Shown here piece by piece: positions 20,434 to 23,868 of a DNA stretch of 37,390 nt. Each line of letters begins with the position of its first letter. The stretch's first letter is position 1. Position numbers and translations under genes: made by a program. The notes beneath the pieces were generated by a model. It did no database searches and was not told where the DNA came from. It saw only the letters and a list, made by a program, of their open reading frames with translations. Origin of the DNA: Nitrososphaeria archaeon (GTDB lineage: Archaea > Thermoproteota > Nitrososphaeria > Nitrososphaerales > Nitrosopumilaceae); the NCBI GenBank assembly GCA_010028495.1, contig RHCX01000005.1, positions 1 to 37,390 of the forward strand, written 5' to 3'.

Positions 20434-21000
20434 TTGTCAATCACAAAACTGCAAAAACCGATTCAAACAAAGGATAATGTCAAAATTGCAAGAACTAGGC
20501 GCCAGCGAGGATATCATTGGGAGGACACTCTGGTAAAACGATTCAATGGATTAGATAGTTGGAAAGGTTTCAGATTAGGTTCGCCAAGTGTTGGCTTGCC
20601 AGATATCCTAGCAGTAAGCAGCAAACATAGTACCATATTTACAATAGAAGCAAAATCAGGCACGACAAATTCCCTGACAGTACCATTTGATCAAATTATT
20701 CGATGTTTAAAGTGGGTTGACAATTTCGAGTTATACCATACCAGAGAGGTAATCTTTGCATTCAAGTTTTTGTCAAAAAAGAGAATAGGCCTTGGAGAAT
20801 ACGAAAAACGAGAATTACGTGAATACTACAAGGTCTGGGATAAATCAAAAAAGATAACAGACTTTGCATGTAATTACGATGGCACCACCTGGGCAATTAT
20901 TGACGCAAAACGCCAAAGGTTGGATCTCAAGGATTACACAATGCCGTTTACCAGCAGGAATGCCAAGACGGAACAGCCTAGTGATAACAGTACAATTTAG
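20434..21000 (+). CDS. Hjc-like PD-(D/E)XK nuclease (Holliday junction resolvase family)
   Basis: 188 residues. R-R-Q-R-G-Y-H-W-E (Glu30) corresponds to the N-terminal glutamate of archaeal Hjc. L-P-D-I-L-A-V (Asp57) and I-E-A-K-S (Glu72, Lys74) form the metal site, with spacing right for the fold. It is longer than classical Hjc (about 120-140 residues); the extra C-terminal 60-70 residues include K-R-E-L-R-E-Y-Y-K-V-W-D and an Asp/Asn-rich tail. It could resolve four-way junctions or be another structure-specific nuclease. TTG 20434 lies about 26 nt after TTCTATAAG, so it has its own promoter. Confidence 0.78.
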   Translation: MSITKLQKPIQTKDNVKIARTRRQRGYHWEDTLVKRFNGLDSWKGFRLGSPSVGLPDILAVSSKHSTIFTIEAKSGTTNSLTVPFDQIIRCLKWVDNFELYHTREVIFAFKFLSKKRIGLGEYEKRELREYYKVWDKSKKITDFACNYDGTTWAIIDAKRQRLDLKDYTMPFTSRNAKTEQPSDNSTI

Positions 21001-21037: not shown

Positions 21038-21397
21038 ATGAGCTTTGAAGACTTTGTAGACGAGAGAATGCTTGTAAGCCATAACGTATTTGGCGACAAG
21101 GAAATGAAGATAAAGATTCTCGAAGTCTCAGACGAGCACCCTCCGGTACAGTGGAAATTTGGAAATAGGGTCAAGGTGAACAAAATTCTCATCACAATAA
21201 AACACCTGACAAACCAGCAAGTTGAGGAAGGCGAGTTCGATATTGATACAATAGAAAAAGAGCTCAAAGAGCGAAGCCATTATACTTCAACCAACAGATG
21301 GGTCTCAGTAAATGACATCAAAAACGGCTATGTGGTAAATTCAAAGCATGTAAATCTGATCTCAGATGCGGTTGCTCTGGAATACATTACGTTCTGA
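21038..21397 (+). CDS. Hypothetical protein, 119 residues
   Basis: Not recognised. It has alternating strands and helices: D-K-E-M-K-I-K-I-L-E-V-S, W-K-F-G-N-R-V-K-V-N-K-I-L-I-T-I-K-H, then a charged helix and V-N-L-I-S-D-A-V-A-L-E-Y near the end. No cysteines, signal peptide or membrane segment. ATG 21038 lies about 26 nt after TTTAATTATCC. It sits between the Hjc-like nuclease and another small protein but is likely a separate transcript. Confidence 0.65.
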   Translation: MSFEDFVDERMLVSHNVFGDKEMKIKILEVSDEHPPVQWKFGNRVKVNKILITIKHLTNQQVEEGEFDIDTIEKELKERSHYTSTNRWVSVNDIKNGYVVNSKHVNLISDAVALEYITF

Positions 21398-21439: not shown

Positions 21440-21772
21440 ATGTCTTCAAAGGAAATCTCCATTTCAGGCACGGATTATACTATTACACTAACGGATCAAA
21501 TAGTAAATCAGGTCAACAACCTAAAATCACTATACAGTGCCGCATATGAAGACCCGGAAAGCTTTGAGCAAGTAAGTTCTGAAATCTCATCCACCATTAA
21601 TGACATTGCAGCCCAAGCAGAACCACCCGTATCTGATGATGATTTGGATGGATTCATCCAAGAAATAATCCGAGTGGTAGACAAAAAGGCAGAGGAACTC
21701 AAAGAAGAGTTAGAAGGCAAGACTGCCAAGCCAAAAAAAGAGATCAAGCCTGCAAAAAAGTCAAAAAAATAA
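21440..21772 (+). CDS. Small helical protein with Lys-rich tail
   Basis: 110 residues, not recognised. A short N-terminal beta hairpin (I-S-I-S-G-T-D-Y-T-I-T-L) precedes helices with L-K-S-L-Y-S-A-A-Y and an acidic segment S-D-D-D-L-D-G-F-I-Q-E-I. The last 25 residues (K-P-K-K-E-I-K-P-A-K-K-S-K-K) are a basic tail like that of the 6766 gene, suggesting contact with nucleic acid or ribosome. ATG 21440 follows an AACTATAAG box by about 28 nt. Confidence 0.62.
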   Translation: MSSKEISISGTDYTITLTDQIVNQVNNLKSLYSAAYEDPESFEQVSSEISSTINDIAAQAEPPVSDDDLDGFIQEIIRVVDKKAEELKEELEGKTAKPKKEIKPAKKSKK

Positions 21773-21814
21773 GCATCATTTTAGCAACAAATCAGCAAAA
21801 AACGTGCAGTTTTA

Positions 21815-21826
21815 GTTATATTATAC
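21815..21826 (+). promoter_or_regulatory. TATA-like box of the 21846 microprotein
   Basis: GTTATATTATAC is centred about 26 nt before the ATG at 21846, matching leaderless archaeal promoters. It supports the short gene as real. Confidence 0.5.
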
Positions 21827-21845: not shown

Positions 21846-21965
21846 ATGAAGTCACATTGCGAATGCGGAATCTGCGGGCATTATGAGGAAAGTGAATGCC
21901 TATCCAAGGAATGCAAGTGTTGCATTAATTTCCATGTCAGGTCCGGCGCAAAAAAAGAAGACTAG
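21846..21965 (+). CDS. 39-residue cysteine-rich microprotein
   Basis: Cysteines at 5, 7, 10, 18, 23, 25 and 26 and a His at 12: C-E-C-G-I-C-G-H, then C-L-S-K-E-C-K-C-C. A strong TATA-like box sits at the right distance. Its TAG interlocks with the stop of the opposite-strand microprotein (CTAG, 21962-21965). The two share the pattern C-x2-C-G ... C ... L-S-K-x-C-x-C, so they look related. Seven cysteines suggest zinc or another soft metal. No named family recognised. Confidence 0.7.
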   Translation: MKSHCECGICGHYEESECLSKECKCCINFHVRSGAKKED

Positions 21966-22060
21966 TTTCTATAGCAACTACAGTTTTTTGATAAATGCCT
22001 TGAGCAGCCAATTATTTTATGATCCTTGCATCCGCACAAAACGCACTTTTTCTCTGACAT
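21962..22060 (-). CDS. 32-residue cysteine-rich microprotein
   Basis: Cysteines at 6, 9, 11, 19, 27 and 29 with His14 and His22: K-C-V-L-C-G-C-K-D-H, then H-L-S-K-N-C-S-C-Y. Its ATG overlaps the stop of the 22467 gene by one base (TAATG), so it is the second gene of that operon. Its stop interlocks with that of the similar microprotein on the other strand. Probably a metal-binding peptide; function unknown. Confidence 0.68.
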   Translation of the reverse strand: MSEKKCVLCGCKDHKIIGCSRHLSKNCSCYRN

Positions 22061-22467
22061 TATCTTAGTATAGTTCGTACATGTTCTAATAGATTATTCT
22101 CTCGAAGTGATCTCAATATTGATAGTCGGAGATTCTTGAGGCGGAGCGGATCATCGGAATACAAGGGTGCCATCGTATCAATTTCTCGGAAAAACTCGTG
22201 ATTTTCCAGGTATAGCCGTATAGGCTTTAACAAGTATTGGTATCCTTCAAGATCCTGTTTGTTTGCCTGCTGCTTGTTTGCTTGTAGTTTGTTTGCCAAA
22301 GCCAACAACAGTCCATTAGTCTTGGCAAGCTCACGCTTTATCGTATCCAAGTCTCCGGATTTATCGGATAAACTCTCCAGCATGTCATACGAATCAGATA
22401 CTTGCTGCAAAACTCTTTTGAAGTAAGCATCCAGTTCTATCATTTTGTTTTGGTATAACACCACCAT
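22060..22467 (-). CDS. Hypothetical helical / coiled-coil protein
   Basis: 135 residues, not recognised. It is nearly all helix: a first helix from I-E-L-D-A-Y-F-K-R-V-L-Q-Q-V, a coiled-coil-like L-A-K-T-N-G-L-L-L-A-L-A-N-K-L-Q with a Gln/Asn/Lys-rich A-N-K-Q-Q-A-N-K-Q stretch, and a C-terminal helical domain L-K-N-L-R-L-S-I-L-R-S-L-R-E-N-N-L-L-E that could be a winged-helix-like unit. ATG 22467 is used; ATG 22443 (M-I-E-L-D) is an alternative. It is followed directly by the 32-residue cysteine microprotein and is divergent from threonine synthase. Confidence 0.65.
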   Translation of the reverse strand: MVVLYQNKMIELDAYFKRVLQQVSDSYDMLESLSDKSGDLDTIKRELAKTNGLLLALANKLQANKQQANKQDLEGYQYLLKPIRLYLENHEFFREIDTMAPLYSDDPLRLKNLRLSILRSLRENNLLEHVRTILR

Positions 22468-22527: not shown

Positions 22528-23868
22528 TTGTTGGAAGGCAATGCTTACCTCAAATGCATAGATCCCGCATGCGGGCTAGAATATCCAATCAATTCTAGAA
22601 ATATAGAATGCGAGCGAGGCCACCTACTAGATGTCAAATACAAAAACAAGCCCTCTCTAGAACTAAAAGAGTTATTTTACACCAGACGAAACTCGCAAGG
22701 AAACATTTTCAATGAAAGCGGAGTCTGGCGATTTAGAGAATTATTGAATTTCTGCCAGGTAGATACAGGTAACAAAGAAGAATGCTCCAAGTATTTGGTA
22801 TCTTTAGACGGGGCAGAAGGCAGACAATCAAAACCATACCAAATGTCCAAAGTTGCAGATTTTATCGGAATAAACCATGATGGATTGTGGCTCCAGCCAG
22901 AAGGATACAACCCAAGTGGCTCTTTCAAGGACAATGGTATGTCAACTGCAGTTACACACGCAAAACTAATTGGCGCGAAAAAGGTGATCTGTGCATCCAC
23001 TGGCAATACCTCAGCAGCTGCTGCAATGTATGCAGCAAATGAAAACATGCAATGTGATGTCTACATTCCCGCAGGACAAATCGCGCCAGGAAAACTATCA
23101 CAGGCGTACCAGTTTGGAGCACAAATAGTCCAGGTTCAGGGCAATTTTGATGATGCATTGGCAAAATCGCTAGACGATGCGAAACACCATGACGGCTATA
23201 CGGTGAATTCCGTAAACCCGTTCAGAATTGAAGGACAAAAAACTATTCCGTATAGAGCAATAGAATATCTCAATTGGAATCCACCGGACTGGATTGTATA
23301 TCCAGGCGGAGCTCTAGGAAACATTTCCAGCTGTGGAAAGGCTTTGATGGAATTGTACGAGTGGGGCTGGATTAAAAAAGTGCCAAGAATTGCTGTGATA
23401 AATTCCGAAGGCGCAAGCACATTATATGATTTGTACAATGGCGAGTTCCAAGGAAAAAATCTCCGATGGAATGGAGGAAAACCAGACACTCAGATGATCA
23501 AAGACTATTACTCTCATCTAGACAAGCAAGGAATCAAACCAAAGACAAAGGCAACCGCCATACAAATCGGCAGACCGGCAAACATTCTCAAAGGATTGCG
23601 AGCACTAGAATTCACAAATGGAGTAGTAGAAAAGGTATCAGATGCAGAGATGCTTGATGGCATGTCCATAGTTGGATTAAACGGATTTGATTGCGAAATG
23701 GCATCTGGTGCATCACCGGCTGGCATCAAAAAGCTAGTAGAAAAAGAAATCATCAAAAAAGACGACATCGTAGTCGGAATTCTCACGGGAAGGCAAAAGG
23801 ATTCCAGTTTACCAGTTGATTACCACAACAATCCTCAAAATAGATTTGCAATTCCACCAAGAGACTAG
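22528..23868 (+). CDS. thrC: Threonine synthase
   Basis: 446 residues. Converts O-phosphohomoserine to threonine. The N-terminus has a small cysteine-containing element (K-C-I-D-P-A-C-G-L-E-Y ... C-E-R-G-H) of the archaeal/plant-like class. The PLP lysine is Lys134 in P-S-G-S-F-K-D-N-G, followed by C-A-S-T-G-N-T-S-A-A, the phosphate-binding loop Y-P-G-G-A-L-G-N, and a C-terminal substrate-binding part with G-L-N-G-F-D-C. The start is TTG 22528 (or the adjacent TTG 22531), about 26 nt after an AAATTTAAA box. The product feeds the threonine ammonia-lyase encoded elsewhere in the window. Confidence 0.93.
   Translation: MLEGNAYLKCIDPACGLEYPINSRNIECERGHLLDVKYKNKPSLELKELFYTRRNSQGNIFNESGVWRFRELLNFCQVDTGNKEECSKYLVSLDGAEGRQSKPYQMSKVADFIGINHDGLWLQPEGYNPSGSFKDNGMSTAVTHAKLIGAKKVICASTGNTSAAAAMYAANENMQCDVYIPAGQIAPGKLSQAYQFGAQIVQVQGNFDDALAKSLDDAKHHDGYTVNSVNPFRIEGQKTIPYRAIEYLNWNPPDWIVYPGGALGNISSCGKALMELYEWGWIKKVPRIAVINSEGASTLYDLYNGEFQGKNLRWNGGKPDTQMIKDYYSHLDKQGIKPKTKATAIQIGRPANILKGLRALEFTNGVVEKVSDAEMLDGMSIVGLNGFDCEMASGASPAGIKKLVEKEIIKKDDIVVGILTGRQKDSSLPVDYHNNPQNRFAIPPRD

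Follow-up and report, generated by a model that had tools for sequence, protein, structure and literature searches.

Here we describe two microproteins, A and B, encoded by facing genes in a genome of the Nitrosopumilaceae. Both are real, ancient and conserved genes that evolve as proteins, and they belong to two unrelated families, between which no homology was detected. The two families are new and unnamed and, judging from their sequences, consist of putative metal-binding microproteins. Taken as a whole, our preferred reading, which we hold to be rather probable, is that these ancient families are zinc microproteins that take part in regulation as small interaction modules. The window analysed is the whole contig (C138; 37,390 nucleotides) from a 1.63-Mb genome, and the features of the locus are collected in Table 1.

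Table 1. The A/B locus and its surroundings (positions in the window)
Feature	Position	Strand	Sequence or motif	Remarks
Putative Hjc-like nuclease	20434..21000	+		Pfam Hjc E=0.0044, below cut-off; syntenic
p119, conserved unknown gene	21038..21397	+		syntenic
p110, conserved unknown gene upstream of A	21440..21772	+		syntenic; no family above cut-off
Archaeal TATA-like promoter element of A	21810..21821	+	TTTTAGTTATAT	24 nt before the A ATG
Microprotein A, 39 aa	21846..21965	+	MKSHCECGICGHYEESECLSKECKCCINFHVRSGAKKED	family-wide conservation; nine invariant Cys/His; pN/pS 0.18
Motif of A			CxCGxCxH-x5-C-x4-CxCC-x3-H	
Overlapping stop codons of A and B	21962..21965		CTAG	particular to this genome
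Microprotein B, 32 aa	21962..22060	-	MSEKKCVLCGCKDHKIIGCSRHLSKNCSCYRN	conserved; eight invariant Cys/His; pN/pS 0.20
Motif of B			C-x2-C-G-C-x2-H-x4-C-x2-H-x4-C-x-C	includes the CCHC zinc-knuckle spacing C-x2-C-x4-H-x4-C
D135, 135-aa protein upstream of B	22060..22467	-		function not known; B neighbour across the family
Threonine synthase (thrC)	22528..23868	+		fixed right-hand neighbour

Conservation of A and B

Both genes are found throughout the archaeal family to which Ca. Nitrosotenuis, Nitrosopumilus and Nitrosotalea belong. An earlier note, made from the letters of the window, had named a lack of homologues in close relatives, or cysteines that are not conserved, as grounds against its proposal; neither applies. 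At E<=1, the 39-residue A peptide matches 83 of 121 related genomes and the 32-residue B peptide 76 of 121, the matches to family members lying mostly below E 1e-9, and the ligand cysteines and histidines are invariant in the core alignments. The closest named relatives bearing A belong to Ca. Nitrosotenuis, others to Nitrosotalea, Nitrosopumilus and Nitrosarchaeum. In the core alignment of A (45 sequences), the invariant positions are nine candidate metal ligands (C5, C7, C10, H12, C18, C23, C25, C26 and H30) together with G8, N28, F29, S33 and G34; broader alignments including paralogues still keep all nine ligands and G8, a divergent copy without some of the ligand cysteines (L121:1517-1666) not being part of these alignments. 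In the case of B (35 sequences), eight candidate ligands (C6, C9, C11, H14, C19, H22, C27 and C29) are invariant, as are K4, G10, D13, G18 and K25, and the order-wide alignment retains C6, C9, G10, C11, H14, G18, C19 and H22.

Codon analysis gave pN/pS values of 0.178 for A and 0.196 for B over all sequences, falling to 0.079 and 0.085 within genus, and the nucleotide differences of both genes are concentrated at codon position 3. These low ratios, together with the third-position differences, show that A and B are under purifying selection at the level of the protein.

Layout of the locus and expression signals

Across the family the gene order is the same, namely the Hjc-like gene, p119, p110 and A, followed by the facing B, D135 and thrC. 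According to the hit coordinates of the homologue searches, A and B are convergent in all 68 genomes that have the two no more than 600 bp apart; 12 genomes contain both at separate places, 15 have A alone and seven B alone. The A and B hits of relatives are separated by anything between a few bp and about 480 bp, the gap being 0 to about 50 bp in most of them and about 230-280 bp in one group. In other families of the order, A adjoins thrC at a spot that holds neither B nor D135 (L073-L078).

The structural claims of the earlier note were borne out in the window. Both open reading frames are present tail to tail at 21846-22060, and their stop codons do interlock by the 4-bp CTAG, an overlap that is not conserved and is a feature of this genome alone. 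The TATA box claimed for A corresponds to TTATAT at 21816-21821, and in 48 of the 56 upstream regions TTATAT or TTAAAT stands 22-24 nt ahead of where A begins. A TATA element at this distance is expected for a leaderless archaeal mRNA, and a nearly leaderless mRNA is accordingly predicted for A. The claimed coupling of B to its upstream gene by TAATG likewise agrees with the junction found, in which the B start at 22060 is the last base of the D135 stop (a one-base overlap), and in 32 of 35 loci the B start falls between -8 and +15 nt relative to the stop of D135. Such proximity of stop and start is what coupled translation would lead one to expect.

The larger gap of about 230-280 bp between A and B holds the gene for a third small protein, C (about 74 aa), which this genome lacks. 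Its conserved residues include H-x3-C, HW and C-x2-C. It was seen at L013:1244-1465 (minus strand) and in the A-B spacers of L003, L005, L007-L012, L015, L050 and L066, which covers Nitrosotenuis and two further genera. The spacer of about 250 bp was also tested for an RNA gene or tRNA, and this option was rejected: none is present, and the spacer codes for protein C.

Relationship between A and B

The earlier note took A and B for inverted duplicates of a single ancestral metal peptide, and within this genome there is some resemblance, both being short, cysteine-rich and provided with C-x2-C-G. The shared pattern C-x2-C-G...LSK-x-C-x-C that it described does hold here, but it is mostly particular to this genome: family-wide, the L and S of the LSK of A vary (45-sequence alignment). 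Shuffled peptides attain the pairwise score in 8% of cases (14% when the cysteines are kept fixed), and the profile-profile comparison of A with B gives a probability of 1.2%, with a score equalled or beaten by 54 of 200 column-shuffled profiles, so that the similarity claimed is at the level of chance; with the same tool, the comparison of A with its paralogue family and that of B with its distant relatives reach 98% each. Comparison of the DNA of both genes plus 60 nt upstream gave p about 0.01 in this genome, and was for that reason extended to 31 genomes, among which this value is the lowest. The median p is 0.61, the low value is not repeated in relatives, and, as a control, same-genome pairs are no more similar than cross-genome pairs. 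The two families also differ in distribution and have their own relatives elsewhere, those of B in other families sitting at other genome sites, and A occurs without B. Inverted duplication is therefore rejected by the peptide shuffles, the profile comparison with column shuffles, the DNA of 31 genomes and an inverted-repeat search, and we consider it very improbable indeed; homology that would unite A and B in one family is not detectable by peptide, profile or DNA comparison. As for the proposal of a new family of metal-binding peptides, the peptides are indeed uncharacterised and cysteine-rich, with conserved candidate ligands, but they make up two families rather than one.

Family and fold searches

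Neither A nor B has a match in Pfam, NCBIfam or PHROGs or a useful relative in a sequence search of the PDB, A is without match among the INPHARED phages, and the peptides are not described in the open-licence papers covered by our literature searches. In the case of B, all 35 family members and the distant relatives keep the CCHC zinc-knuckle spacing C-x2-C-x4-H-x4-C unchanged, and B shares with the CCHC zinc knuckle (PF00098; Lin28, RBBP6) the glycine after the second cysteine. It departs from the knuckle in adding the invariant C11 and H22, plus C27 and C29 within its own family, and in standing alone, in an archaeon, with no match to PF00098: this zf-CCHC profile does not find B in the genome even at E<=10, and gives zero matches among 35 plus 10 B members at E<=1. 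Given this non-match and the extra invariant ligands, membership of the knuckle family is not claimed.

The AlphaFold2 model of B is of low confidence (pLDDT 69), and when searched against the PDB with Foldseek at E<=10, all eight matches were CCHC zinc knuckles, from Lin28/TUT4 complexes or RBBP6, each one insignificant (E 4.9-8.4, probability <=0.08). A zinc-knuckle fold for B is conceivable but somewhat doubtful. The model of A is compact, with two short helices (pLDDT 79), and the fold search with it gave no match. It has been reported that AlphaFold2 could not predict zinc coordination in the C(P)XCG microproteins of Haloferax (PMC11241148), and the models of A and B are thus weak evidence.

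Comparison with known metal-binding microproteins

The closest studied counterparts of A and B are the haloarchaeal C(P)XCG microproteins, such as HVO_0758 and HVO_2753 of Haloferax volcanii, described as single-domain proteins of less than 70 aa whose conserved cysteines are thought to hold zinc, a mutant phenotype being known for many of them (PMC6562870, PMC10716476, PMC11241148). In Haloferax volcanii, deletion of one-domain zinc-finger microproteins resulted in a phenotype in 12 of 16 mutants (PMC6562870). A (39 aa) and B (32 aa) fall within this range of length, but neither carries two of the motifs: A has one C-x2-C-G (C7-C10) and a CxCC, B one C-x2-C-G (C6-C9) and a CxC. They use histidine as well, with nine and eight candidate ligands rather than two C(P)XCG pairs. 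As only nine of 14 Haloferax C(P)XCG microproteins tested bound zinc, the other five being zinc-free (PMC11241148), metal binding by A and B, suggested by their conserved residues, is to be regarded as likely rather than certain.

Genomic neighbours and viral copies

The genes for paralogues of A (ending ...DHQGAFGKNR) have TFIIB-like, PII and universal-stress-protein genes in their vicinity. One copy of A itself overlaps the end of a TFB gene. The TFB neighbourhood is mostly that of the paralogue, and largely from one genus, and so constitutes weak evidence for A itself. The loci concerned are L083, L092, L093, L094, L098 and L070, in which A paralogues and one A copy adjoin or overlap TFB (TFIIB) genes and other paralogues adjoin PII and universal-stress-protein genes.

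Homologues of A are also present on six viral contigs (L202-L207, IMG/VR), in one of which (L202) the A-like gene adjoins that of a tailed-virus portal protein; no copy of B on viral contigs was confirmed. Large genes similar to that in L202 are found in L205 and L207.

Further relatives occur in other settings. In another archaeal family, a distant A-like Cys/His segment lies at the C-terminal end of longer proteins for which hydrophobic segments are predicted (L115, L117). One A copy adjoins open reading frames resembling an IS66-type transposase (L086). Relatives of B lie directly upstream of a gene pair encoding a MetF-like protein and methionine synthase (L105, L110, L111 and L112), or have an HD-domain gene on one side and a PhoU gene on the other (L103 and L106).

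Discussion

Two further explanations have to be weighed against our preferred reading. The main rival is that A, and perhaps B, is a metallothionein-like buffer, whose cysteines store or detoxify metal with no specific partner. The high cysteine content, with C-x-C, C-x2-C and C-C, fits such a role, as does the conservation, which is highest at the Cys and His positions, and prokaryotic metallothioneins (PF02069) are likewise small cysteine-rich peptides with C-x-C and C-x2-C. However, A and B have conserved structural residues, non-ligand positions being invariant too (G8, N28, F29, S33 and G34 in A; G10, D13 and G18 in B), their spacing is rigid, unlike that of a typical buffer, and neither has a Pfam match at E<=1, prokaryotic metallothionein included; we regard a buffer as rather unlikely. 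The other explanation places the meaning in the layout itself, with convergent A and B mRNAs overlapping at their 3' ends and controlling each other by antisense pairing or termination. The strict convergence of the adjacent pairs, often within 50 bp, speaks for this, yet the distance reaches about 480 bp, the gene for protein C can intervene, the two genes are split in 12 genomes, and a fixed gene order is enough to explain the orientation. Mutual control of this kind appears decidedly unlikely.

All together, we return to the reading of A and B as zinc microproteins, for which we propose the following model. A, driven by a TATA promoter of its own, would have a nearly leaderless mRNA, and B would be produced by coupled translation at the end of a D135-B operon. 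Each would fold around one or two zinc ions, and the two families would meet in the conserved convergent layout of the ammonia-oxidising archaea. B may work as a zinc knuckle on its own and could bind single-stranded nucleic acid in company with D135. A, with relatives on virus-like contigs and near genes for TFB, PII and universal stress proteins, may contact nucleic acid or the transcription and regulatory machinery. A regulatory role of A and B is quite possible, if short of probable; the most specific version, in which a free-standing B knuckle works with D135 on ssRNA or ssDNA, and a zinc family of A shared by host and virus works on the TFB machinery, is speculative and unlikely.

Little is known about the regulation of ammonia-oxidising archaea, which rank among the most abundant cells on Earth. 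The two families, unnamed, strongly conserved and with a clear layout, are worth annotating, and, at 30-40 aa, they are easy to make and thus direct targets for metal-binding and structural work. If B were a true zinc knuckle, it would represent a nucleic-acid-binding module standing alone in archaea, and should A contact the TFB machinery, the copies carried by virus-like contigs would become candidates for factors of host control.
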